63,956 bases of DNA, from contig CADAHS010000012.1 in NCBI GenBank assembly GCA_902787825.1, forward strand, positions 1 to 63,956, in the 5' to 3' direction. The stretch comes from an uncultured Ruminococcus sp. (GTDB taxonomy: Bacteria > Bacillota > Clostridia > Oscillospirales > Ruminococcaceae). Of this stretch, positions 121 through 12,731 are shown one piece after another (within the stretch, counting starts at the first letter, position 1; each line of letters opens with the position of its first letter). The notes beneath the pieces are model-generated. The model ran no database searches, had not been told where the DNA came from, and was given only the letters and a program-made list of their open reading frames with translations. The position numbers and the translations under genes are program-made.

Positions 121-1170
121 TTACATACCGTACTGATAATATGCTGAGCAAGCGCCCTCGCCGGAAACCATGCAGGCACCTACGGGGTGCTGCGGTGTAC
201 ATACCTTTCCGAACACCTTGCAGTCGCTGGGCTTGCACTTGCCCTGCAAAACATCGCCGCAGCGGCAGGCTGGGTTTGGCTTTCCTTTCATCTCGGGCAG
301 GCTGAATTTCTTTCGTGCATCAAAATCTGCGTACTCGTCACGCAGTGTCATACCCGACATCTTTATCATTCCAAGTCCACGCCACTCACTGTCGCACGGC
401 TGCATGACCTTGTCCATCAGCTTTTGTGCAGCAGGGCTTCCCTCGTCTTTTACGACTCTTGGATAACAGTTCACAAAGAACGGCTCTCCCTTTTGCAGAA
501 GCGTTACCGTGACAGCAAGTGCCGTCATCAGCTCCTTTGCCGTAAAGCCTGCAACCACTCCGCTCACGCCCTGTTTGCAAAGCTCCATGCAGACCGCATT
601 TCCCGTTATCGCATTGACGTGACCGGGGAAAAGAAACGCATCTGCACTCCCCTTCAACGCCTGATAAGCATTTGGCATCGTCTTGTTTGCGCACAGTATC
701 GAAAAATTGTCCAGACCCGCAGCCTTTGCTTTTTCTACCGCAAGGCAAGCCGACGGCGTTGTCGTTTCAAATCCGACAGCAAGAAAAACGACCTGCTTGT
801 CAGGATTATCCTTTGCAAATTCCACAGCGTCAAGCGGCGAATAGACCGTCTTTAACTGTGCACCCTTGCTCCTTGCATCTGCAAGACTCATCTGCGTTCC
901 CGGCACCCTGATAAGATCTCCAAAGGTGCAGATCACACAGTTCTTTTCAAGCGCAAGGCAGCACGCCTCGTCGATAAATCCCACCGGTGTTACGCACACA
1001 GGACACCCCGGACCGGAGATAAGCTCAATGCTTTCCGGCAGCAGCTTTCTTATGCCAAGACGGAAGATCTCGTGAGTGTGTGTTCCGCAAACCTCCATAA
1101 TGCGCAGCTTTCTGCCGTTATAGCTTTGAAGTATCTGCTTTGGCGAAAGCTCCTTCTTTTCGTTTTCCAT
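121..1170 (-). CDS. hypD: Hydrogenase maturation protein HypD
   Basis: HypD is the Fe-S scaffold on which the Fe(CN)2CO group of [NiFe]-hydrogenase is built together with HypC and HypE. The 349-residue product has the usual length and all landmark motifs: CGTHTHE near residue 28, GPGCPVC near 53, GFETTTP near 132, and a Cys-rich C-terminus with CRCGDVLQGKC and CTPQHPVGACMV. Its start overlaps the hypC stop by one base (TAATG). It is the last gene of the nitrogenase-like/hydrogenase-maturation operon seen here. hypE, the usual next gene, is not visible because the contig ends in a repeat. No [NiFe]-hydrogenase subunit is in the window. Confidence 0.95.
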   Translation of the reverse strand: MENEKKELSPKQILQSYNGRKLRIMEVCGTHTHEIFRLGIRKLLPESIELISGPGCPVCVTPVGFIDEACCLALEKNCVICTFGDLIRVPGTQMSLADARSKGAQLKTVYSPLDAVEFAKDNPDKQVVFLAVGFETTTPSACLAVEKAKAAGLDNFSILCANKTMPNAYQALKGSADAFLFPGHVNAITGNAVCMELCKQGVSGVVAGFTAKELMTALAVTVTLLQKGEPFFVNCYPRVVKDEGSPAAQKLMDKVMQPCDSEWRGLGMIKMSGMTLRDEYADFDARKKFSLPEMKGKPNPACRCGDVLQGKCKPSDCKVFGKVCTPQHPVGACMVSGEGACSAYYQYGM

Positions 1171-1376
1171 TACAGCTCCTCCATGATTTTTTCTGTTTCG
1201 CTTGCGTCGTCGTCAGTGATCTTCGCAATAGCAACACCTGCGTGCACCATCACATAATCGCCGATCTCCAGATCGTCAAGCAGATCAGCACTTACACTTC
1301 TTTTTGCACCGCTTGCATCTATAACAGCAGTGCCGTCTTTAAGGTCAACTACCTTTGCTGATAAACCTACACACAT
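1170..1376 (-). CDS. hypC: Hydrogenase maturation chaperone HypC
   Basis: HypC is a small OB-fold chaperone that carries the Fe(CN)2CO intermediate with HypD and hands it to the hydrogenase large subunit. The 68-residue protein starts MCVG, keeping the essential Cys2 after Met processing, and has the IGDYVMVHAGVAI segment typical of the family. It follows hypF by 21 bases and overlaps hypD by one base. Its presence without a hydrogenase gene nearby raises the question of which apo-protein receives the group. Confidence 0.93.
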   Translation of the reverse strand: MCVGLSAKVVDLKDGTAVIDASGAKRSVSADLLDDLEIGDYVMVHAGVAIAKITDDDASETEKIMEEL

Positions 1377-1397
1377 GATTAATACCTCCCGGAATAA

Positions 1398-3686
1398 TTA
1401 ATTCTTATCATTATTGCAAAGTGCATAATACGCCTGTCCGAGGGCGATGCCTCCGTCGTTTGCGGGAACGAGCCCGTGTATCAGCACATTGAATCCCTTT
1501 GCTTCAAGCCCGCCTTTTGCAAGTCTTAACAGCAGCTTGTTCTGAAAAACTCCACCGCTGAGTGCAGCCTTTTTTATGCCGGCTTTTTTGCTTAGCTTTT
1601 CGCAGCATTTCACGATCCCGTCAGCCAGCGAAGCGTGGAAAATATACGCAAGCCTGTCAGGCTGAACACCATCAAGAAAGCTCTGTGTCAGCTGCTTTAC
1701 AAGCGTTGTCGTGTCAAGCGTTTCAAAGCCGTTTTCGCTGAGTATCTCAAGACTGAATTGCGGCTGTGCGCCTTCGCTGCTCTTTTCAAAACGTTCTGCT
1801 GCAAACTCAAGACACATCGAGCTTTCGCCCTCGAAGGTGGATTTTTTTCTTACACCAAGTATTGCGCTCACAGCGTCAAAAAGTCTGCCCGCACTCGTGG
1901 ACATGACCGTGTTCACTCGCTTGTCAGCCATTACCGATTGCAGCTTGAAAGTCTTTTCATCACACAGTCCAAGCTGTTCGCAGACACTTTGTGCATCATC
2001 ACCGAACCCGTCCCGGATAAGCTGAACGGCGATACGCCAGCCCTCTTTTGAAGAAGCGTCACCGCCGACCTGACTGAACGGCTTGATGCTGCCGGCTCTT
2101 TCAAAACCGTGGGTGTCGCAGATCAGTATCTCGCCGCCCCAGATAGTTGCATCACTGCCATAGCCCGTGCCGTCAAACGAAACCCCAATGACCTTGTCAT
2201 CATAGTCGTTTTCAGCCATGCACGAAAGTATATGCGCATAGTGGTGCTGGATCTTTACGAGCGGAAGACCGGTTTCCTCAGCGACCGTCACCGTGTTGTA
2301 GCGTGGGTGCATATCGCACACGCAGATGTCCGGCTGAACTTCAAGCAGCTCCTGCATTCTTCCGACCGATTCTTTAAGTGCGTTGACAGTGCGAATGTCC
2401 GCCATATCTCCGACATATGATGACAGGTAAAGCAGCTCGTTTTTGCCGATACAAAATGTGTTTTTCAGCTCGCCGCCGATCGCAAGACTTTGCAGATCTG
2501 CTTTTTTGCTGACCATAACAGGCAGCGGCGCAAAACCTCTTGAACGCCGTATCATGTAAGGCTTGCCGTCGAACCAGTCCATCACCGAGTCGTCCGCACG
2601 GATAAGTATACGCCTGTTGTGCGAAAGAATAAGATCACAGTAGGAACCTATCTCGGTCAGTGCGTCCTCATCGCTGCGGCAGATCGGTGCACCCGAAACG
2701 TTGCCGCTTGTCATCACCAGACAGTCGGTCATTTCAACGCCGTCCGGATATTCAAACAGAAGCATCTGAAGCGGTGCATAAGGCAGCATCACCCCGACTG
2801 TCGGATTGTCAGGCGAAACACTTGCACAAAGCCTGCCATCTCTCTTTTCAAGCAGCAGGATCGGCTTCTGATAGCCCGTCAGGAACTCCTGCTGACCATC
2901 AAGAACATTGCATTCCCTCCGCACTGTCTGCATATTTTTCATCATCACCGCAAACGGCTTCTGCGGACGGTTTTTAAGTGCCCTCAGACGGCTGACAGCT
3001 TCCTGATCGCAAGCGTCGCAGCACAGATGAAATCCGCCAATGCCCTTCACAGCAATGATCTTGCCGTCCATTATGCTTTTCCTTGCAAGCGTTATAGCCT
3101 CGCTTCCCCTGATGCCGCTGCCGACGATATAGACCTGCGGACCGCAGTCATTGCAGCAAACCGGCTGAGCGTCATAGCGTCTTGTGTGCGAGTGGGTGTA
3201 CTCGTACTCACACTGCGGACACATCGGAAAATCCTTCATCGTAGTTCTTTCCCTGTCATAAGGCATCGCATCGAGGATAGTCAGTCTTGGTCCGCACTGA
3301 GTGCAGTTGATGAACGGGTGAAGATAGCGTCGGTCGTTTTTATCAAAAAGCTCGGCAGCGCATTTATCGCAGGTCGCAATATCGGGCGAAACGAAAATAT
3401 CGCCGGCTTCCTTCTCGCTCTGGATAATTTCAAATGTCTTGAAATCGGTATCGCTTATCTGCCTGACATCAGCAGAGATGACTACCGCACGCTGTGGGGT
3501 ATCGGTCTTCAGAATGTTCACGAATCGTTCGAGCGTCTGCTGCGGTGCCTGCGCAAAAACCTCAACATATGAGCCCTTGTTCGCAACCGTCCCCAGCACT
3601 CCGAGCGAATCGGCTGTGCGTGAAACGAACGGTCTGAACCCGACCCCCTGAACAATACCGTAAAGTCGAATCATCAAAGAAGGCAT
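1398..3686 (-). CDS. hypF: Carbamoyltransferase HypF
   Basis: HypF makes the cyanide precursor from carbamoyl phosphate and transfers it to the C-terminal Cys of HypE. The 762-residue protein shows the standard order: an N-terminal acylphosphatase domain (GIVQGVGFRPF, residues 9-19), two Cys4 zinc-finger units (about 105-185, CDKC, CTQCGP, CPQC, CNDCGP), a YrdC/Sua5-like domain, and a C-terminal Kae1-like domain with HHYAH. It starts inside the end of the upstream nifK-like gene (13-base overlap), so it is co-translated with the nitrogenase-like genes. HypE itself is not in the window. Confidence 0.95.
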   Translation of the reverse strand: MPSLMIRLYGIVQGVGFRPFVSRTADSLGVLGTVANKGSYVEVFAQAPQQTLERFVNILKTDTPQRAVVISADVRQISDTDFKTFEIIQSEKEAGDIFVSPDIATCDKCAAELFDKNDRRYLHPFINCTQCGPRLTILDAMPYDRERTTMKDFPMCPQCEYEYTHSHTRRYDAQPVCCNDCGPQVYIVGSGIRGSEAITLARKSIMDGKIIAVKGIGGFHLCCDACDQEAVSRLRALKNRPQKPFAVMMKNMQTVRRECNVLDGQQEFLTGYQKPILLLEKRDGRLCASVSPDNPTVGVMLPYAPLQMLLFEYPDGVEMTDCLVMTSGNVSGAPICRSDEDALTEIGSYCDLILSHNRRILIRADDSVMDWFDGKPYMIRRSRGFAPLPVMVSKKADLQSLAIGGELKNTFCIGKNELLYLSSYVGDMADIRTVNALKESVGRMQELLEVQPDICVCDMHPRYNTVTVAEETGLPLVKIQHHYAHILSCMAENDYDDKVIGVSFDGTGYGSDATIWGGEILICDTHGFERAGSIKPFSQVGGDASSKEGWRIAVQLIRDGFGDDAQSVCEQLGLCDEKTFKLQSVMADKRVNTVMSTSAGRLFDAVSAILGVRKKSTFEGESSMCLEFAAERFEKSSEGAQPQFSLEILSENGFETLDTTTLVKQLTQSFLDGVQPDRLAYIFHASLADGIVKCCEKLSKKAGIKKAALSGGVFQNKLLLRLAKGGLEAKGFNVLIHGLVPANDGGIALGQAYYALCNNDKN

Positions 3687-4729
3687 GTCTGTCCTCCGTT
3701 TTCATCAAGTCTGCCTGAGACAGCAAAGTGCGGCAGGTCGATAAGCTCACCGTCAAACTGCCTCAGCGCCCTGTTGCAGATGTTGTCGATAACGACCGCA
3801 TCGTACCCGCCGCCAAGCACCTTGTTCACAAGCTGCTCCTCATCGCCAAGCTGCTCATCATCGTCTTGTTTAAACTCATCAAACAGCTTGAAGAATGTTG
3901 CAACATCAACATCGCAGTCGTACCTTTGTTTTAAAAGCTCACGCATTTTGTTTGCTGCAAACTGCTGGTGTACAACAAGTATTTTTCTGCCGTTAAGATC
4001 ATTTTCAAGCACCCTGCTCATCGCCTCGGTGATCGGGAAATCCGTCTCAAAAGGTATGCCAAATTGCTGTTTCATATATTCAGCAGCAGCTATCCCACCC
4101 GTTGAAACAACAATATTTCTTTCACATTCTGATGCTTTTGCTATCTCGTCGATACCGCAGCCCATTCCAAAGCAAACAGCGCTGTTTCCATACGCCTGCC
4201 TGAATATTTTCTCTGTCATATATCCGCTTGCGAGCGGTGTGCAGCCGATGATACCTAGCTTTCCTTTGACAGTTTCATATTTTTGTGTCGCAAACGTCTT
4301 GAAAAGTTCCAGATAAGCTCTTTGTTCACCGTCATCATACAATCTTGTTCCGGTGCAGTCAACACATATCGCAGGCAGACCAGTCTTGTTTTCCGCCATA
4401 CGTCTGAGCGCCCTGTAATCAGTCGCAATGACCGCAGGAACAGGTGTACCGACCACCGCAGTGAACCTGACACTTGTCTGCCCCACCGCCTTGGCAGTCT
4501 TTTCTATCAGCCTGTCATCACGCCCGAGAATAGCGTCCATATCACGAAGTCCCGCACTGAACACAGCGCTTTTTTTAGTGAACCACCTTGGCTCATCAAA
4601 GCCGCAGATATTTCCTGCGCAGCCGCCCGCATCGCAGATGACCACAAGCCCTCCAAGCTCGTACAGCACCCCGACAGCACCCGACTGATCCGGTGCGAAC
4701 GGCGAAAGAAGCTTGAGCAGATTTTTCAT
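3674..4729 (-). CDS. Nitrogenase component 1-like protein, K-type, set B
   Basis: A 351-residue member of the Oxidored_nitro family (NifD/K, BchN/B, CfbD and relatives). The N-terminus has SGAVGVLYELGGLVV followed by three closely spaced cysteines (C32, C37, C42) and DEPRWF, parallel to the K-type protein at 6777-7931. It is much shorter than NifK (about 520), closer to the minimal nitrogenase-like subunits. It overlaps its D-type partner by 4 bases and hypF by 13. Cys42 and Cys37 are candidate ligands of a bridging Fe-S cluster. No known nitrogenase-like function (chlorophyll, F430, methylthioalkane reduction) can be assigned; the substrate is unknown. Confidence 0.85.
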   Translation of the reverse strand: MKNLLKLLSPFAPDQSGAVGVLYELGGLVVICDAGGCAGNICGFDEPRWFTKKSAVFSAGLRDMDAILGRDDRLIEKTAKAVGQTSVRFTAVVGTPVPAVIATDYRALRRMAENKTGLPAICVDCTGTRLYDDGEQRAYLELFKTFATQKYETVKGKLGIIGCTPLASGYMTEKIFRQAYGNSAVCFGMGCGIDEIAKASECERNIVVSTGGIAAAEYMKQQFGIPFETDFPITEAMSRVLENDLNGRKILVVHQQFAANKMRELLKQRYDCDVDVATFFKLFDEFKQDDDEQLGDEEQLVNKVLGGGYDAVVIDNICNRALRQFDGELIDLPHFAVSGRLDENGGQTCLL

Positions 4730-6021
4730 TTTGCTCCTCCTTTCAATGCCTCGTCAAGCTTTTCAAACAGCAGCTTCACGCCTGCATATCCGAAAGGCTG
4801 ACGCTCCTCGTTCCAATCGACCGCAGGAACATCACTGTGGTAATAGCCTGCGTCGTTTCCGATGCAGACATCTATCTTTTTGCCGCTTGGCTCATAGTCA
4901 AGCATCGTCGGAGAAAGATTTGAAAAGATCTTTGTATCGGGGCTGAGCTTTGCAATTTTTCTGATGAATACAAAGTTGCGTTCACCGACCGTCCCGTAGA
5001 TCTCCGAAACAGTGAAGCCATAGCTTATCAAAGCCCATGCAAGCTCGAACGAATCAGCGTTGAGAAACTCCCCCACCGCAAAATTCAGCTTTCCGTATTC
5101 AGCCTTGAAGCCCTCGACCGCAGCCTTGGCTTGTGTGTAATACTTCTCATCGTCAAACTCCGCACCGATCGCATTTCCCAGCGACCTGTAAAGATTTCTG
5201 ATCTTGTCGATGTGGTACATTCTCATCATTTCGATATACGGAATACCCAGCGTTTCCTCCATCTGCTGTGCAGCATATCTTGCCTCGGGATTGAGCACAA
5301 GATTGAAATTTGCCTGCGACATTTTTTCATACTCAGCAAGATCCTCACAGCGTGAGATCTCACGGATATGCCTTATTCCCGCACCTGTCAGCAGCTCGTA
5401 TATCTCGCTGTCATCATTGAGCGGCGCAAAGAAACCAAGTATATTCATTGCGTCCGAATGTCTTTTTTGCGGCTTCAGAAGCGAGTATACCGCCTTTCTG
5501 ACCGCTGCCATCGGCGGAAGCTTCTTTTCTCTTGTCAGAGCGTACATATAGCACGGCACGACCGGCACTCCTGCAAGCTCCTCACACTTCCTGCTGACCC
5601 TGTCCATATCCGTACCCAGCAGTGCGTCCACACAGGTAATGCAGATCATTACCGCAGATGGCTTCTTCTCGCAGAACTCGCAGACCTCCCTGACCGCCTC
5701 GGGGATCTTCGTGAGATGCCTGCCCGTGACAATGTCCGTGTCATCAAGCAGCAGATAGAAGAACCTGTCCTGATAGCCGCACAGCCTTGATTGCATCGTC
5801 GTGTTTCTTCCGCAGCAGCCGGGCGATACAAGCAGCATCACCGATCCCGGTACCGCAAGTCCGGCACGCTTGACGCCAAATCCCTGCGCTCCGGGCGAAT
5901 TGAACGCAAGAGTCGCAGGAGAAGAATATATCAGATGTTCTGCGCTCATAAGCTCGTCCGGAGTGTTCTCATACCCCAGCTCCGCAAGCTCCGACGCTGT
6001 TATATAAAATGCATTATCCAT
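4726..6021 (-). CDS. Nitrogenase component 1-like protein, D-type, set B
   Basis: A 431-residue Oxidored_nitro family protein, probably the partner of the 3674-4729 product in a heterotetramer. Visible Fe-S ligand candidates are the SPGCCGR motif (C69/C70) and C130 in [11 protein letters not shown], which resemble two of the three NifD cluster cysteines. A stretch near residue 240 ([17 protein letters not shown]) parallels NIVVIPEALAAAQELEQ in the set A protein, showing the two D-type genes are paralogues. It overlaps nifH-like B by 8 bases and the K-type gene by 4. I cannot identify the equivalents of the FeMo-cofactor ligands by eye. Confidence 0.85.
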
Positions 6022-6775
6022 TCTCGTTTTCCTCGTCTATCAGCTTCTGTGCGAGCGCCAGAAAGCGTTTTGAGACCTCAAGCTGCGCATCGCCCTCAAC
6101 GACTGTCTTTCCCTCGTCCTCAAACCTGATTATGTCATTTGAACGTGGTATCTCAGCCACTATTTCGAGTCCGTTTTTTTGGACAAATTCATTCACCTTC
6201 TCGTCCTCGTTCTCAACGTTCCTTCTGTTGAAAACAATGCCCCTGACCTTTGCATAGCTGCGGTCAGCAAAATTCTTAACTGCACTGTTTATGTTGTTTG
6301 CAGCGTAAAGCGCCATTTTTTCACCTGAGGTAACTATCAGCACCTGCGAAGCGTAGCCCTCTCTTATCGGTGCGGCAAATCCTCCGCACACAACATCACC
6401 GAGCACGTCGTAAAGCACAACATCGGGCTTGTACTTTTTATACAGATCAAAGCTTTCCAGCAGATTGAATGTCGTGATTATCCCTCTGCCCGCACAGCCA
6501 AGACCCGGTGTCGGTCCGCCTGTTTCGATACACAGTATCCCCTTGTATCCTACCTTTGAGATCTCCTCAATGCCCGACGGTTCATCGTTTTCACGAAGAT
6601 AGTTCATCACCGGTGTCAGCAGCTCTCCGCCCAGCAGATTTATCGTAGAATCCGCCTTAGGGTCACAGCCTATCTGAATAACACGCTTTCCAAGAGTTGC
6701 AAAAGCAGCAGCAAGGTTTGCCGTGACGGTGGACTTGCCTATACCGCCTTTTCCGTAAATTGCGATCTTAATCAT
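6014..6775 (-). CDS. NifH-like reductase ATPase, set B
   Basis: A 253-residue homodimeric Fe-protein relative, expected to pass electrons from ATP hydrolysis to the set B component 1. It has the P-loop GKGGIGKST at the N-terminus, the two [4Fe-4S] ligand cysteines in GLGCAGRG and GDVVCGGF, and the switch region DVLGDVVC. I place the start at [11 protein letters not shown] (6775) because it directly follows the upstream stop codon (6777-6779) and matches the family N-terminus; an in-frame ATG six codons earlier exists. It is clearly paralogous to the NifH-like protein at 9248-10000. Confidence 0.92.
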
Positions 6776-6776
6776 A

Positions 6777-7931
6777 TCAAATCTCCAAATCAATTTTATT
6801 GTTCACAAGATCGGGTATCGTCTTTCTGAAGCACCGTCCCGAAAATGCCTCATGCGCAATACCAACAAACTTCGTCTGCTCAGCGACTATCGGCTTGAAA
6901 AGCGGATCGGCAATGATCACGCCGTAATTTGCAAACTCCGCCTCAAGCTTATCCTCATCAGCAAGTTTTTTGTCGTTTTGTGCAACAACGCAGTCATCGG
7001 TGTCCAGTGTGTGGATAACTCTTACAGCTCTGCCCGTCTGCAAAGACACTGCTCTTGCGACAGAACCTGCGTAGATACTCTCACCCACAACAGCTATATC
7101 GAACTTGTCCGTTTCACGCTCAACGCAGGAAAGCACATTCTCCCTGCCCTGCACCGCACGCCTTATATCCTCAGCAAGCACCCTGCTGTACTCTTTTCCA
7201 AACGGCAGACCCGTGACAAACGGGATACCGAATCTTTTGTCAAGAACTCTTGCCGCCTCCAGTCCGCTTGACGAAACAACAAGATCACACTGCGCATCGC
7301 CTGCGCCTGCGTAGTCCTCAAGCGAGCTTCCCATAGCCATGCAGCAGCCGGATTCAAAACCGTTTTCTTCAAGCCACGAGCGTATTGAATCTATTATCTC
7401 CTGCCGTGAAAGATCAAGCGGAGTCGCACCGATGATGTTGACTATCGGCCTTTTGCCGGACCTTCCGGTCTTGCCGCAGAAGTTTTGCGCAAGCATCTCA
7501 AAAGCCTGCGAAGCACCCACGAGATAGCTTTTCATGCCGTTTGTGTGCATCGCAAAGGTCCTTATCCCGCAGCGCTGTTGTATTATAAGTGCAAGCGCAT
7601 CAAAATCCGTGCCCGTCATCGCCGGCATCGGAGATCCGCAGATAGCAATAAATTTCGGTTTCAGCCGCTGTGCCGATTCGCAGACATCGCTGATAAACTT
7701 TTCATCGTTGCCCATAACAGCGTCTATCTCAGTCAGCCCCGAAATGTAGATCATACTGTCCATCGTGTACCAGCGTGGTTCATCGTGGGTCGCATATGTC
7801 GAATTGCACCCCGAAGCATCGTGTACAACGACCATTCCGCCAAGCTCGTAAAGCGCCGAGCATACGCCCGAGGTATCCGCAGTGTAGCACGAGATAATTC
7901 TTGCATAGTGTATCATAGACAGCTTTGGCAC
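6777..7931 (-). CDS. Nitrogenase component 1-like protein, K-type, set A
   Basis: A 384-residue Oxidored_nitro family protein. The N-terminal block [14 protein letters not shown], the cysteines C15, C24 and C42 (ASGCNS) and HDEPRWY align with the set B K-type protein, as does [14 protein letters not shown], where C98 precedes the motif here but a Val stands in set B. It overlaps the D-type gene upstream by 19 bases and is followed at one base by nifH-like B. It probably forms a complex with the 7913-9244 product. The function is not known; the operon with hydrogenase maturases suggests metallocofactor chemistry. Confidence 0.86.
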
Positions 7932-9244
7932 CCCATTCCTTTATGCTGGATAACGACTTTTCTGTCCTTTTTGTTTTCAAATGCATCTTCTATCTGAGCC
8001 GCAAGTCTGATGATCCCGTCAAAACCGTAAAGCCCCTTTGCCCCGACCATATCCACAAAATGATCCGTGCAGCAGAAATATGCCGCCTTCTGACCGATCG
8101 CAAGGTATTCATCATTTGTCTGTTCAAGACTCGCAAAAAATCTCATCGAGGAATTTACAGTCGGGTACAGCTCAATATCCGGATGATTATGTTTGATATA
8201 CTCAAACGCCTCACCGTCCTCAGCATTGATAACATCAATGAAAACCCGTCTTACATTGAACCCGTTTTCAAGCAGCAGTCTGCAAAGCTCAAGCGGCTTG
8301 TGCGTCGCCATAAAATCCACCGCAACAGGCATTGAACCAACCAGCTCAGCAGCTTTTGCAAGCGCCGATGCTGCCTCATTTTCCTTTTGCGAAAGATCGG
8401 GAAGATCTATACCAAGCTCATCACAAAGCTTTCGGTAATTATCTCTTATCTTTCCGAAGTCATAGCTCACAGGAAGATACAGCTGCTTTTGTCCGATCCT
8501 TTGTTCAAGCTCCTGTGCCGCAGCAAGCGCCTCCGGGATCACCACAATGTTCAGCCTTGACTTTGCCATATCAAGATAGCTTTCATAGTCCTTGCAATTT
8601 GCAAGCTCCCTGAGTGTGAAGCCTGCATCTTTTATCATCTTCACAAGCTCGCAGCTTTGCTCAAAAGCCCAGTTGTACCCTATGATGTTCACACTTTTGC
8701 TGTCCTTTGGAACATTGCGAAGCGGCACGAACATCTGCTTGTACATCGTCGGCACCGGGGCAAGTCCGCTGAAACGCATAGTCGGTGTCATGTAGCATTT
8801 CACAAAGTCTATACCGCCGAACCTGCTTTCAAGCTCGTCGATTATCATATCAAAATCCACGCCTGCAAAAAGGTGCATACAGCTCAGAAAAACAAGTATG
8901 CAGGGCGGACGATCTTTCATTCGCTTTATGACCTCGCAGACAGAATCAATGATGTTGTATTCCATGCTTGCGTCAGCGTAATCTTCATCACACAGATACG
9001 CCCACGAAAGCCTGTCCATTGCGTCCATCTCCGCAGTAGTCTGCACAACACCCCTCAGACAGCCCTGTGCACAGAAATATATCTGATGCGATTTTGGGAT
9101 AAGCAGACCCATATGAACGATGTTCCAGTCGCCCCTTGCCGGAGGGCTGTATTCAAGTCCCGACTCAAACGGACGGGGGAACTCAGCGTGAGCTATCTTC
9201 ACGCCCTTTGGTGCGGATATCTCACCGCCTGCCTTTTTCAGCAT
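7913..9244 (-). CDS. Nitrogenase component 1-like protein, D-type, set A
   Basis: A 443-residue Oxidored_nitro family protein. Candidate Fe-S ligands are C58 and C62 in YFCAQGC and C122 in FLSCMHLFAGVDFD, matching the spacing seen in the set B D-type protein (C69/C70 and C130). It ends with an extra CxxC (GCQSCL) absent from set B. Three bases separate it from nifH-like A upstream, and its end overlaps the K-type gene by 19 bases, a sign of translational coupling and 1:1 stoichiometry. NifE, NifN and NifB homologues are absent from the window, so nitrogen fixation is unlikely. Confidence 0.86.
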   Translation of the reverse strand: MLKKAGGEISAPKGVKIAHAEFPRPFESGLEYSPPARGDWNIVHMGLLIPKSHQIYFCAQGCLRGVVQTTAEMDAMDRLSWAYLCDEDYADASMEYNIIDSVCEVIKRMKDRPPCILVFLSCMHLFAGVDFDMIIDELESRFGGIDFVKCYMTPTMRFSGLAPVPTMYKQMFVPLRNVPKDSKSVNIIGYNWAFEQSCELVKMIKDAGFTLRELANCKDYESYLDMAKSRLNIVVIPEALAAAQELEQRIGQKQLYLPVSYDFGKIRDNYRKLCDELGIDLPDLSQKENEAASALAKAAELVGSMPVAVDFMATHKPLELCRLLLENGFNVRRVFIDVINAEDGEAFEYIKHNHPDIELYPTVNSSMRFFASLEQTNDEYLAIGQKAAYFCCTDHFVDMVGAKGLYGFDGIIRLAAQIEDAFENKKDRKVVIQHKGMGCQSCL

Positions 9245-9247
9245 ATA

Positions 9248-10000
9248 TCACTCAAAACCTTTCATTATCTCATCTGCAAGCTTCATATACTGCTTTGCCA
9301 TATCGCTGTCAGGATACCTGTTCATCACCGTCGTGCCCAGCTTGTCACACTCCTGCACAAGCCTGCTCCTTTCAAGATCACCGACTATGATCGTGTCAAA
9401 ATCCTTCGCAAGCGTCTGTACATTTTCAAGTTCGTCATCGACATTTCTTCTGTTCAGTATAAGACCGCCGAGCTGTGCGTATCCCCTGCCCTTGAAATTG
9501 TCTATCGCCATTGCGATATTTCCCGCAGCATAGCAGGACATCTTCTCGCCCGAGGTGACTATGAACACCTTCTGTGCATATCCCTTGTGCATCGGCATCG
9601 AAAAGCCTCCGCATACAACATCTCCCAGCACATCATACAGCACGATATCCGGCTTGTATTTTTCATATGCGCCTTTTTTTTCGAGCCTTTCCAGCGCAGC
9701 GATTATGCCCCTTCCCGCACAGCCAAGTCCCGGGATAGGTCCGCCAGCCTCAACGCAGAACACACCGTCCTCACTCACCGTGACCATGTCCTCCAGCGTG
9801 AAGTTGTCACCTCTTTCACGCACCAGGTCAAGTACAGTCTTTATGCGTTTTCCGCCGTTTAGCAGCGACGTTGAATCCGCCTTCGGGTCACAGCCTATCT
9901 GCATGACTCTCAGCCCCCGCCTTACCAGTGCGACCGCTAAATTTGAAACGGTAGTTGACTTGCCTATACCGCCCTTACCGTAAACTGCTATCTTTATCAT
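9248..10000 (-). CDS. NifH-like reductase ATPase, set A
   Basis: A 250-residue Fe-protein relative with P-loop [10 protein letters not shown] and both cluster cysteines (GLGCAGRG and GDVVCGGF). An upstream in-frame ATG at 10090 would add 30 residues with no family resemblance, so I start at [11 protein letters not shown] (10000). This start lies 26 bases inside the end of hydE, so the two are translationally linked. It is presumably the specific electron donor for the set A D/K pair directly downstream, while the second NifH-like protein serves set B. Cross-reaction is possible because the two are similar. Confidence 0.92.
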
Positions 10001-11054
10001 AACTCTTGTGATCTCCTCTTGTGATCTCGACCTTGTAGCCGATCGACTCCATTCGCCTTTCAAGGTCCTCTCTTCCGTTTTTCGCCTCAACGTCAGTACC
10101 TGTTTTGTTGTTGTAAAGCAGATAGTTCTTTCTCACATTCATCGGCGAAAGATTCGGCATAATTACGTTTGCACCTGCAAGCACTCCCTTTTCCCTGCCG
10201 TCAGGTCGGATAGTTCCCAACGCCGTAGTTGCCGGGATAAGGCAATCCGGCAGCATAAGCCTGCAAAGACTAATCAGAAACAGCGTCAGCTCATAGCTGC
10301 CTGCGGGCTTGTCACCAAACGGGGTGTCCTTGTGCGAAAGAAACGGTCCTATTCCTATCATCTCAGGCTTGAATCGTTCAATAAAAAGCATATCCCGTGC
10401 AAGGTCCTCCACCGTCTGAAACGGCGAACCCACCATCATTCCGCAGCCCGTCTGAAAGCCTATCTCATGCAGCATTTCAAGGCAGTCCATTCTGTGCCGC
10501 CACGACATCTCGCCCGGGTGAAGCTTTTTGTAATGCTCCTCACTCGCCGTCTCGTGACGCAGAAGATACCTGTCTGCACCGGCATCAAATAAACGCTTGT
10601 AGTCCTCATATTCCAGCTCACCCACCGAAAGCGTCACCGCACAGTCAGGGTGAGCTTTTTTTATGTCACAAACCACCTCGCAAAGCTTGTCCGTGGTGTA
10701 GCTTTTGTCCTCACCGCTTTGCAGTACAAATGTACGGAAACCGTACTCATATCCAGCATCACAGCATTCAAGGATCTGCTGCTTTGTGAGCCTGTAACGT
10801 TCACAGTTTGCGTTTGACTTTCGTATGCCGCAATAGTAGCAGTCGTTTTTGCAGACGTTTGAAAATTCGACTATCCCGCGGATAAAAATGCTTTTGCTGA
10901 AGTTTGCGATCGCTGCCTCACGACCCTTTTGTGCCGCATATTCCCTGTCCTCATCGGTATAGCTTTCAAACAGCTGTACCCACTGTTCACGTTCAAGATG
11001 TCTTTGCTTTTCAAGAATATCAATAAGTTGCTTGTTGTTCATATCATCACTCAC
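9975..11054 (-). CDS. hydE: [FeFe]-hydrogenase maturase HydE (radical SAM)
   Basis: HydE is a radical SAM enzyme that, in [FeFe]-hydrogenase maturation, processes the HydG product toward the diiron subcluster loaded on HydF. The 359-residue product has the CX3CX2C motif CKNDCYYC followed by GIRKSN and ERYRLT, a HydE signature, and the barrel strands of the family. It overlaps hydF by 4 bases and nifH-like A by 26. HydG is not in the window. In this setting HydE may act on a cofactor for the nitrogenase-like proteins instead of, or as well as, the H-cluster; that is inference. Confidence 0.92.
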
Positions 11055-12247
11055 AGTTTGTCATAAAGGTGTGGAAAGATCTGCACACTTCTTTTGAGTA
11101 TCCCTGTCATGTATGCTATCGCCACGCCGTAGTTTGTGAACGCCACACCCTGATCCACAGCACATTTCATTCGGTAGGTCATCTCTCTTGGTGTAAGCAT
11201 ACAGCCGCCGCAGTGAACGACCAGTGCGTAAGGCGAGAGATCGTCGGGGAACTCTCTGCCCGAGGTGAAGCATAGCTCGATGTCCTTTCCCGTGTGTTTT
11301 CTCAGCCAGTTGGGTATCTTGACCGTTCCGATATCGTTGCACTGTCTGTGGTGAGTGCAGCCCTCAGAGATGAGCACCTTGTCGCCGTCTTTGAGCTTGT
11401 CTATCGCAACTGCACCGTCAACGGCGGTGTCCAGAAAGCCCTTGTATCTTGCCATAAGAATAGAGAAAGATGTCAGCATCACGTCCTGCGGTGTCTGCCT
11501 GTCTGCGCTTGCAAACGCCTGACTGTCCGTGATAACAAGTGCCGGCTTTGTTCCAAGCGCACTCAGCGTGTCGCTCAGCTCCGTGTCCTTGACAACCACC
11601 GCACACGCATCAGCTTCAAGAATATCCCTTATGGTCTGCTGCTGAGGAAGTATCAGTCTTCCCTTTGGTGCTGCCTCGTCTATCGGCACAACAAGCACCA
11701 CAAGATCGTTTCGCTTGAGCTTGTCGCCGATGATACGCACATTCTGCTCAGGCAGCTTTGCGATCGCAGCGATACGCTCCTTCAGCTCATAAATGCCCTC
11801 GCCTGTTCTGGCATTGACCACGACCTCGCCGTCAGATGCATTCTTATCAGCATTGTCGTCCTTGATATTCTTTGCAATGATATACGGGATCTTTTTCTTT
11901 TCAAACAGCCCGACAAGTTCTCTTTCGCAATCGCCCATTCCGACCGTGTTATCTGTGACCAGCACCGCACAGTCAGTCCTGTTCAGAGCATTTGTCGTGC
12001 TTTTCACACGCATCTCGCCAAGCATTCCCTCATCGTCATATCCTGCCGTGTCAATTATTACAACAGGTCCGACAGGCAAAAGCTCCATAGTCTTGTACAC
12101 AGGATCGGTCGTCGTTCCCGGCACATCAGATACAAGCGACAGCTGCTGACCCGTCACAGCATTCACCACGCTTGATTTGCCGGCATTGCGCCTGCCGAAA
12201 AAACCTATATGAACTCTCTCGGCCGCAGGAGTATCGTTCATTCCCAT
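11051..12247 (-). CDS. hydF: [FeFe]-hydrogenase maturation GTPase HydF
   Basis: HydF is the GTPase scaffold on which the [2Fe] subcluster is completed before transfer to HydA. The 398-residue protein has a TrmE/Era-like G domain (GRRNAGKSS, then PGTTTDP and DTAGYD) and a C-terminal Fe-S domain with CTHH near residue 294 and HCGGC about 50 residues later, the CxH...HCxxC pattern of the family. Start at 12247 has GAGGTG eight bases upstream; a second ATG two codons later is possible. It is the first enzyme gene after the structured leader and begins the overlapping gene run. Confidence 0.94.
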   Translation of the reverse strand: MGMNDTPAAERVHIGFFGRRNAGKSSVVNAVTGQQLSLVSDVPGTTTDPVYKTMELLPVGPVVIIDTAGYDDEGMLGEMRVKSTTNALNRTDCAVLVTDNTVGMGDCERELVGLFEKKKIPYIIAKNIKDDNADKNASDGEVVVNARTGEGIYELKERIAAIAKLPEQNVRIIGDKLKRNDLVVLVVPIDEAAPKGRLILPQQQTIRDILEADACAVVVKDTELSDTLSALGTKPALVITDSQAFASADRQTPQDVMLTSFSILMARYKGFLDTAVDGAVAIDKLKDGDKVLISEGCTHHRQCNDIGTVKIPNWLRKHTGKDIELCFTSGREFPDDLSPYALVVHCGGCMLTPREMTYRMKCAVDQGVAFTNYGVAIAYMTGILKRSVQIFPHLYDKL

Positions 12248-12403
12248 AGCAGGATCACCTCTTTCTCACAAATAAAAAAACAGTCTATCCCGACGGATAA
12301 ACTGATCCACTTCAAGCCATACCGCACCCTTGCGGACAGCCTTTTTGTTTACCAAGCTTTCGCCTCAATCAAATTTCAGCGTCAGGAGATAATTTAAAAA
12401 TAT
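12248..12403 (-). promoter_or_regulatory. Structured leader before hydF (possible attenuator)
   Basis: The 156 bases between the TM1266-type gene and hydF can form, on the minus strand, a GNRA-capped stem (12354-12365), a five-pair CCGCA/TGCGG hairpin (12322-12335), and a terminator-like hairpin followed by seven T (12274-12304). A short GGAT/ATCC stem (12295-12308) shares bases with that terminator and would exclude it. This layout fits transcription attenuation controlled by a ligand or protein, but I do not recognise a known riboswitch class. Confidence 0.5.
12274..12304 (-). terminator. Intrinsic terminator-like hairpin in the hydF leader
   Basis: A ten-pair stem with one G-U pair and a GTCG loop (CAGTTTATCC / GGATAGACTG) is followed directly by seven T on the minus strand. 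It lies between the regulator gene and hydF, so termination here would uncouple the regulator from the enzymes. Confidence 0.65.
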
Positions 12404-12655
12404 TCATTTTTTGTTCGCCGAATAAAGTGTTTTCGCAGTCACACCGTTCAGCCTGCCGATCTTTCCCCCAAGAGAATTGATCTTGTCCTGCGGCGCATCT
12501 ATCGCAACGCTGATGACATTTACACCCTTTTCTCTGTACGGAACACCCATTCTTCCAATAATGTACTCACGGTATTCGTGAAGAATGGTATTGATCTGTT
12601 CGGCAGAATCGAAATCTTCAGTGATGAGTGCAAGCACAGCAACTCTGTTTTCCAT
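12404..12655 (-). CDS. TM1266-family putative iron-only hydrogenase regulator
   Basis: An 83-residue ferredoxin-like (ACT-type) protein of the family often called iron-only hydrogenase system regulator (TM1266). The N-terminal VAVLALITED, the IGRMGVPYREKGVNVISVAIDAP segment split by the family pattern, and the NSLGGKIGRLNGV C-terminus fit well. GGAGG lies six bases before the ATG. It is the first gene after a strong promoter and precedes hydF, the usual neighbourhood. Its biochemical role is not established; ligand sensing or control of the downstream genes is plausible. Confidence 0.85.
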   Translation of the reverse strand: MENRVAVLALITEDFDSAEQINTILHEYREYIIGRMGVPYREKGVNVISVAIDAPQDKINSLGGKIGRLNGVTAKTLYSANKK

Positions 12656-12702: not shown

Positions 12703-12731
12703 ATCATACCACATTTGTGCCCATTTGTCAA
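12703..12731 (-). promoter_or_regulatory. Sigma-A promoter of the hyd/nif-like/hyp operon
   Basis: On the minus strand a perfect TTGACA (12726-12731) and TATGAT (12703-12708) are separated by exactly 17 bases. No other comparable promoter is apparent inside the operon, so the 12 genes down to hypD are probably one transcript modulated by the leader hairpin. Confidence 0.85.

Follow-up and report, generated by a model that had tools for sequence, protein, structure and literature searches.

A twelve-gene operon on a contig from an uncultured Ruminococcus sp. probably replaces HydG, the enzyme whose tyrosine chemistry is taken to be the source of carbon monoxide (CO) and cyanide (CN) in [FeFe] hydrogenases. 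The window that we analyzed is the whole of this contig (C12; 63,956 nucleotides; GenBank CADAHS010000012.1) from a genome, G000 (assembly GCA_902787825.1), whose genus is the one that holds Ruminococcus albus. HydG ordinarily splits tyrosine into CO and cyanide on iron and passes Fe(CO)2(CN) to HydE (Di Leonardo et al. 2022, PMC9431212). The operon joins the genes for HydF and HydE to two nitrogenase-like sets, each comprising a NifH-like protein (H) and two component-1-like proteins (D and K), and to hyp genes. Comparative sequence evidence makes it likely that the first set, H1D1K1, fed either by HypFCDE together with the second set (H2D2K2) or by an imported compound, takes the place of HydG as the source of Fe-CO-CN for HydE. 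Our confidence is a shade lower, though still good, that HypCDEF would be the source of cyanide in the version of the system that carries the Hyp proteins.

The operon occupies positions 12655 to 121 of the minus strand, and its genes and signals are as follows.

12703..12731, minus strand: promoter-like site TTGACA-17-TATGAT with TG preceding the second hexamer, 11/12 matches, 47 bases 5' of gene 1
12404..12655, minus strand: TM1266-type regulator of the [FeFe] hydrogenase system, 83 amino acids (aa); TIGR03959, 108 bits (cut-off 60.8)
12281..12304, minus strand: terminator-like hairpin followed by TTTTTTT (seven T), between genes 1 and 2 (TM1266 and HydF)
11051..12247, minus strand: HydF, 398 aa; TIGR03918, 545 bits (cut-off 325.6), with HydF dimer and tetramer domains
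9975..11054, minus strand: HydE, 359 aa; TIGR03956, 541 bits (cut-off 254.6), radical SAM motif Cys68-Cys72-Cys75 conserved
9248..10000, minus strand: H1, NifH-like ATPase, 250 aa; PF00142, 287 bits, under all equivalog cut-offs
7913..9244, minus strand: D1, nitrogenase component-1-like, 443 aa; marker for the exclusion of HydG
6777..7931, minus strand: K1, nitrogenase component-1-like, 384 aa; PF00148
6014..6775, minus strand: H2, NifH-like ATPase, 253 aa; PF00142, 296 bits
4726..6021, minus strand: D2, nitrogenase component-1-like, 431 aa, paralogue of D1; PF00148
3674..4729, minus strand: K2, nitrogenase component-1-like, 351 aa, paralogue of K1; PF00148
1398..3686, minus strand: HypF, carbamoyltransferase, 762 aa; TIGR00143, 773 bits (cut-off 466)
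1170..1376, minus strand: HypC, 68 aa, with Cys2 and His45; TIGR00074, 64 bits (cut-off 48)
121..1170, minus strand: HypD, 349 aa; TIGR00075, 405 bits (cut-off 193)

A first-pass annotation of this DNA had proposed a twelve-gene operon of Hyd genes, two H-D-K sets and Hyp genes, and all twelve are present on the minus strand in the order that it gave. The span that it assigned, 1170-12655, does hold operon genes but leaves out HypD, the true extent being 121-12655. We corrected the ATG starts of the NifH-like genes to 10000 for H1 (open reading frame listed as 9248-10090) and 6775 for H2 (listed as 6014-6793); with these starts, adjacent genes from HydF through HypD overlap or lie no more than 21 bases apart. 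Against solved structures, HydE scores 277 bits with HydE entries, 5few among them. The annotation had invoked one strong promoter, and a promoter-like site does stand at 12731-12703, but the hairpin at 12304-12281 comes after gene 1, so that a single transcript of the twelve genes from one promoter is only likely; the hairpin could be an attenuator. In 13 kb we counted 16 promoter-like sites against 11.9 +/- 2.5 in shuffles, weak evidence on its own, and 17 terminator-like hairpins against 11.2 +/- 3.9. The Hyp genes listed there were HypF, HypC and HypD. HypE too is encoded in the genome: a HypE match lies on contig C39 (16153-17142, minus strand), 144 bases from the end of that 17286-base contig. 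This location fits an assembly break directly after HypD, and it was because of the contig edge that HypE was missed. HypA and HypB are not among the operon genes, and no genome-wide search for either was made.

The genes proved syntenic in relatives, as the first-pass annotation had asked to have checked, in the genus, in a sample of the class and in public genomes. All thirteen genes (HypE included) lie in one stretch and in the same order in 14 of 29 genus genomes, so the order is not due to chance; in the other 15 the stretch is ended by a contig end or by the limits of the sequence fetched, or the order is different. In three of them (G006, G007 and G028), HypE is on a separate contig even though HypD does not lie at the end of its own. 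The genus proteins are from 42% (K1) to 100% (HypC) identical to those of the window. D1 proper (>400 bits) was found in 27 of the 29 genomes, the remaining two, G001 and G010, being matched through D2 alone. HydF scores over its cut-off and HydE is present in every genus genome, and HydA-type genes (PF02906) occur in 28, the exception (G019) being 76% complete. The H-cluster motifs TSCCPGW, IPCTAKKFE and EIMACPGGCINGGG were identified in HydA of G000 and of R. albus 7 (G022), which is described as a producer of H2 with HydABC (PMC6288185), and the L1, L2 and L3 motifs are intact in these two genomes and in G053. A low-scoring HydA relative of ~560 aa follows HypE, with one other gene between them, in G021 (L048:17805-19490) and G018 (L065:5770-7452); ferredoxin domains and an FeS domain are present in the L048 protein.

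HydG and D1 exclude one another. No HydG over the NCBI model cut-off was found in any of the 29 genus genomes, whereas 17 of 32 other genomes in the same search pass. Among those 32 the sole D1 carrier, G053, has HydE, HydF and HydA and no HydG over the cut-off. In the class sample (391 genomes, G000 included; D1 profile threshold 400 bits), D1 exceeded 400 bits in 16, and HydG was over its cut-off in none of the 16 as opposed to 240 of the 375 others (Fisher p = 1.5e-7, uncorrected for kinship, the class counts not being independent by descent). HydA-type genes are present in all 16. The exclusion also holds within genera: in g94, six D1 genomes are without HydG and three genomes (G144, G297 and G385) have HydG and no D1; in g174, G266 and G374 carry D1 and G392 carries HydG; and in g227, G434 has D1 and G380 has HydG. 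As judged from gene content, this distribution is the pattern of one system displacing another. It is confined to the close D1 family: of five genomes with weaker D1 relatives (200-320 bits), four also have HydG (G131, G205, G235 and G325) and one, G198, does not. The earlier suggestion that the nitrogenase-like complexes may replace a missing maturation step is thus strongly supported, with HydG as the missing step.

Gene order in the hyd operons points the same way. The common order in HydG genomes is TM1266-HydE-HydG-HydF, and one type of D1 locus (type B, described below) often reads HydE-H1-D1-K1-FecB-HydF (L116, L148, L152), so that H1D1K1 occupies HydG's place. We compared 44 hand-picked HydE sequences of D1 genomes with those of HydG genomes, for which 20 HydG regions were fetched and 15 yielded HydE. 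In the 15 HydG-genome sequences, 77 columns are conserved to 90% or more; 70 of them are equally conserved in the 44, and at none of the 77 do the D1-genome sequences have a different majority residue. The simplest reading of a HydE lacking group-specific residues is that it still receives the same substrate, and the idea that HydE has shifted to another one was rejected on this basis. The HydE tree has long branches and does not settle the frequency of the switch between HydG and D1.

The Hyp proteins of the genus have no evident [NiFe] enzyme to mature. Our search for the [NiFe] large subunit covered 61 genomes and matched none of the 29 from the genus, two of the 32 from outside it, and five of 14 control genomes (four over the cut-off). 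HypD is nonetheless encoded in 28 of the 29 genus genomes, and HypE is over its cut-off in 26 and present as a fragment in another. Cyanide transfer and iron binding need the last Cys of HypE and Cys2 of HypC; in the genus, the C-terminal Cys of HypE is kept in 24 of 24 sequences, Cys2 of HypC in 27 of 28 and His45 in 28 of 28. Retention of these proteins in genomes with no [NiFe] large subunit indicates that Hyp in this genus must serve some other client, for which the operon suggests the H-cluster. We therefore rejected [NiFe] maturation as the sole Hyp role.

Public genomes contain at least 559 confirmed D1 relatives, and we sorted the loci of the 80 best into types. In type A loci, H2-D2-K2-HypF-HypC-HypD-HypE forms one block with H1-D1-K1; in type B loci, H1-D1-K1 is accompanied by a FecB-FecCD-ATPase importer, with neither H2D2K2 nor Hyp in the locus. 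Twenty of the 80 are type A, two have Hyp but no D2 in the stretch, 51 are type B and seven were assigned to neither; within the stretch examined, none of the 80 has both modules together. The separation extends to whole genomes, since in the class sample HypD is found in 11 of 11 genomes with D1 and D2 and in none of five with D1 only; it is also not found in G053. A TM1266-like domain is found at the C-terminus of the type B importer ATPase in 38 of 46 distinct proteins, or 39 of 48 loci when two genomes are counted twice, and the permease reaches its highest scores, all under cut-off, with models for vitamin B12 and F420-0. A tree of a hand-picked subset of K1 and K2, with R. albus nitrogenase-like proteins as outgroups, places K2 in one clade and intermixes the K1 proteins of types A and B. 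In this tree, whose root is unsure because of the long outgroup branches, type-A C. ljungdahlii, C. luticellarii and G178 are nested in a type-B group, and well-supported branches require at least two changes per type label. With H1D1K1 constant and the modules exchanged, the same thing appears to be obtained by two routes, one through the Hyp block and the other through the importer.

The type A block H2-D2-K2-HypF-C-D-E is conserved in Ruminococcus, Clostridium, a Megasphaera metagenome-assembled genome (MAG) and Lentisphaeria MAGs. Records titled Lentisphaeria, Lentisphaerae or Victivallales, together with the Megasphaera MAG, contain the type A cluster (L173, L180, L182, L189, L199, L156), which suggests inter-phylum transfer if the bins are right. 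Among the seven unassigned loci, a partial HypE remains at the edge of the contig in L165, the contigs of L151, L179 and L194 are short, and the other three are L149, L154 and L184.

The nitrogenase-like proteins score below the cut-offs of the known families that they match. D1, K1, D2 and K2 all contain PF00148, and profile comparison relates D1 to D2 (probability 99.9%, 24% identity) and K1 to K2 (probability 100%, 28% identity); the four Cys are kept in H1 (29/29) and H2 (27/27). With the NifH model H2 and H1 reach 311 and 307 bits (cut-off 394), with the CfbC model 307 and 299 bits are obtained (cut-off 402), and the D and K proteins score at most 74 bits with any nitrogenase model (cut-offs 427 for NifK and 654 for NifD). 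The best scores with the Bch models are 208 bits for BchL (cut-off 345), 198 for BchX (331), 22 for BchN (420), 18.5 for BchY (425) and 45 for BchB (490). No NCBIfam Mar model matched. The placement of the six proteins that the first-pass annotation had called for is thus partly tested: they are below the cut-off of every NCBIfam nitrogenase-superfamily model matched. A role in nitrogen fixation was rejected, as H, D and K are all under the Nif cut-offs and R. albus 7 has other, separate PF00148 genes. Such genes outside the operon were seen both in G000 (L083) and in R. albus 7 (L084, L085, L091), and G000 has two PF00148 matches within one open frame of about 950 codons.

The predicted folds of D1 and D2 are those of nitrogenase component 1 and NifEN (mean pLDDT 82.0 and 82.5), with 10-20% identity to the solved relatives listed, and the solved-structure and fold searches picked out no single closest relative of the nitrogenase-like proteins. 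NifEN is the scaffold that matures the nitrogenase cofactor, and it works with a NifH partner in cofactor assembly. It is the best solved-structure sequence match of D1 (30 bits) and has the same fold; however, identity over the predicted D1 fold is ~13-16%, D1 matches no NifE model, and the other D and K proteins are far below the NifE cut-off. DPOR (BchLNB), CfbCD and methylthio-alkane reductase (Mar) are likewise nitrogenase-like reductases, and the D1 fold is shared with DPOR and Mar and the D2 fold with Mar (the Mar structures 9fmg and 9d9u turned up in the fold searches with D1 and D2). They differ in that H1/H2 and the D and K proteins are below the BchL, BchN, BchB and CfbC cut-offs and in that the operon is without any tetrapyrrole or sulfur-pathway gene. 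Two arrangements support the pairing of H with D-K: in G266 (L114:12711-14804), H1 and D1 are fused in one 698-residue protein, and in five of the six g94 genomes (L122-L127), a single NifH-like gene, H2, lies beside both D-K pairs, H1 not being in the stretches fetched. The single H2 of g94 appears to serve both pairs.

HypF and HypE make enzyme-bound thiocyanate from carbamoyl phosphate, HypCD builds Fe(CN)2(CO), NifH-like proteins deliver low-potential electrons with ATP, and HydE accepts the Fe(CO)2(CN) product of HydG. In type A loci, HypF, HypE, HypC and HypD would form cyanide from carbamoyl phosphate and load iron as Fe(CN)2(CO), by chemistry that is established for these families and presumed to hold here. 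H2D2K2, whose genes directly precede HypFCDE, would take over or remodel Fe(CN)2(CO), and H1D1K1 would finish the unit by ATP-driven low-potential reduction, with, for example, one cyanide lost and CO gained from CO2. H1D1K1 would in this way supply a Fe(CO)2(CN)-type substrate to HydE, and HydF would carry the [2Fe] unit to HydA. In type B loci, the FecBCD-type importer would replace HypFCDE and H2D2K2, so that the starting compound for H1D1K1 would be brought from outside. We infer that the complexes act on CN/CO-liganded iron, as the first-pass annotation had proposed, and infer likewise the ligand chemistry of each complex and the identity of the imported compound. The division of labor between the two complexes is tentative and may well be otherwise. 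More doubtful still is the fullest version of the proposal, in which the nitrogenase-like enzymes remodel CN/CO ligands on one iron, type A making the unit and type B importing an iron-cyanide-carbonyl compound, or a close precursor, via the hydrogenase-linked FecBCD-type importer.

The operon resembles HydEFG maturation in that HydE, HydF and the TM1266 regulator stand side by side and are conserved, and in that HydA has the H-cluster motifs; the difference is that HydG is absent and nitrogenase-like complexes, with HypFCDE or the importer, are in its place. As in [NiFe] maturation, HypF, HypC, HypD and HypE are over their cut-offs with key Cys kept; here, however, the Hyp genes are joined to nitrogenase-like genes, HypA/HypB are not in the operon, and the genus is without the large subunit. 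The first-pass annotation knew of no characterized system of this composition, and none turned up in the open-licence literature, but the association itself was noticed in print in 2012, when nitrogenase-like genes of Coprococcus catus and other Firmicutes were reported as neighbors of genes for hydrogenase maturation, and others as adjoining ABC transporters (Dos Santos et al. 2012, PMC3464626). Those genes, as described, have the same association as ours. The portions of that paper available contain no mention of HydG, its absence, the lack of a [NiFe] hydrogenase or the exchange of Hyp and importer. In the open-licence literature, with most subscription journals outside its scope, we found no description of HydG-free H-cluster assembly by these genes and no paper linking the nitrogenase-like genes to the absence of HydG and to HypCDEF without HypAB.

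Replacement of HydG fits a published puzzle in acetogens, namely the want of a convincing HydG together with HypCDEF lacking HypAB. In a study of eight clostridial acetogens, typical hydG was not found in five, atypical candidates were listed, and HypCDEF without HypAB was reported in five, with the suggestion of 'fine mechanisms, not yet identified' (PMC9431212). We found type A loci in C. ljungdahlii, C. carboxidivorans, C. ragsdalei, C. drakei, C. muellerianum and C. luticellarii; of these, the last (G374) was searched for HydG and has none over the cut-off. According to a transposon study, C. autoethanogenum possesses an [FeFe]-hydrogenase complex named Hyt (PMC9004356), and the available portions of that study do not mention the cluster.

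Several other explanations have to be set against replacement of HydG. What the operon makes for these HydA proteins could be some other CN/CO iron cofactor, or an H-cluster whose ligand set differs, instead of the standard H-cluster: the HypCDEF product Fe(CN)2(CO) has another ligand ratio than the Fe(CO)2(CN) of HydG, nitrogenase-like complexes are new to H-cluster biology, and the genus has low-scoring HydA relatives beside normal HydA. Yet the HydA motifs are intact in all three genomes mentioned above, HydE has no group-specific residues and HydF is kept throughout the genus, and we consider this explanation quite unlikely. There is a similarly small chance that the complexes serve iron or tetrapyrrole supply by reducing an imported chelate and are merely co-regulated with hydrogenase, HydG having been replaced by something unrecognized. 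The FecBCD-type importers of types B and C, whose permease scores are highest (though under cut-off) with the vitamin B12 and F420-0 models, and the reduction of tetrapyrroles by the relatives BchLNB and CfbCD would agree with such a role. It is harder to reconcile with the exclusion of HydG by the close D1 family, the replacement of the importer by HypFCDE in type A, the TM1266 domain on most type B ATPases and the location of H1D1K1 inside hyd operons.

A HydG too divergent to be recognized, or ThiH, which also cleaves tyrosine, might instead supply the missing activity, with the operon as an accessory. HydG-model matches of 170-196 bits do occur in 15 of the 29 genus genomes, and a divergent HydG has been raised as a possibility for acetogens, with candidates listed (PMC9431212). 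The best HydG-model match of G000, however, is ThiH (486 bits with the ThiH model, cut-off 380; 180 bits with the HydG model, cut-off 312), and no match better than about E 1e-20 was found in the other 14 genus genomes, nor one better than about E 1e-24, the range of HydE, in 10 of the 16 class-sample D1 genomes. We rejected divergent HydG or ThiH as the missing activity on these grounds, and regard the explanation as very improbable. Slighter still is the chance that HypCDEF matures a [NiFe]-type enzyme and adjoins the hyd genes by accident. HypCDEF is the standard [NiFe] maturation set, Hyp occurs together with a [NiFe] match and HydG in G038 and G049, and each of the eight clostridial acetogens of PMC9431212 has a [NiFe] hydrogenase; the lack of any large subunit in the genus and the conservation of one block from H2 to HypE in organisms as named above tell against it.

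Other observations weigh against the replacement of HydG by H1D1K1 or complicate it. The case is built throughout on comparison of sequences. In G001 (85% complete, 7% contaminated), HydE is directly followed by H2, and H1D1K1 is missing both beside HydE and in the search; G010 was matched only via a D2 fragment. G032 (L035), G057 (L036) and G055 (L038) have HydA with complete L1, L2 and L3 motifs, yet HydE, HydF and HydG are not over cut-off and there is no nitrogenase-like PF00148 gene, from which it follows that absence of HydG need not imply the nitrogenase-like operon. In L149, L154 and L184, HydE-H1-D1-K1-HydF stands with neither HypFCDE nor importer nearby, which contradicts the notion, now discarded, that every D1 locus has one or the other; the neighbors typed in L149 (six genes) and L184 (one) are not FecBCD-type transporters. 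Type B has no known cyanide source, a gap for which the chemistry proposed for type A does not account. A further type C, consisting of a divergent H-D-K with FecB-FecCD-ATPase (L130, L131, L132, L133), is related to both H-D-K sets, has no HydE/HydF in the stretch and lacks the TM1266-like domain in all four of its ATPases. It occurs in the HydG genomes G131, G205 and G235 and in G198, which has no HydG match, and a still weaker D1 relative accompanies HydG in G325; type C in HydG genomes indicates that the wider family does something else too. With type C, loci that lack a feeder and HydA genomes that lack a recognized maturase, parts of the picture are missing. The acetogens cut both ways as well. 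PMC9431212 lists HydG genes identified by motif for C. autoethanogenum, C. drakei and C. scatologenes, and for every one of the eight species but C. autoethanogenum it adds atypical HydG candidates; D1 is carried by C. ljungdahlii, C. ragsdalei, C. carboxidivorans and C. drakei. Moreover, the [NiFe] hydrogenases of these acetogens give HypCDEF another possible client there, and it may serve both.

If H1D1K1 does replace HydG, a large set of anaerobes, with at least 559 confirmed D1 relatives, would make the same cofactor by other chemistry; the best 80 of the 559 include rumen and gut Ruminococcaceae, Oscillospiraceae, gas-fermenting Clostridium and MAGs labeled Megasphaera and Lentisphaeria. 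The Hyd, Hyp and nitrogenase-like systems would be joined in one pathway, which would help with the acetogen puzzle, add a new substrate class for nitrogenase-like enzymes and offer a tool for hydrogenase production without HydG, and the proposal would be testable in species with gene tools. Were type B loci to import the compound as proposed, the H-cluster precursor would be a resource shared across gut and rumen communities and scavenged much as vitamin B12 is.

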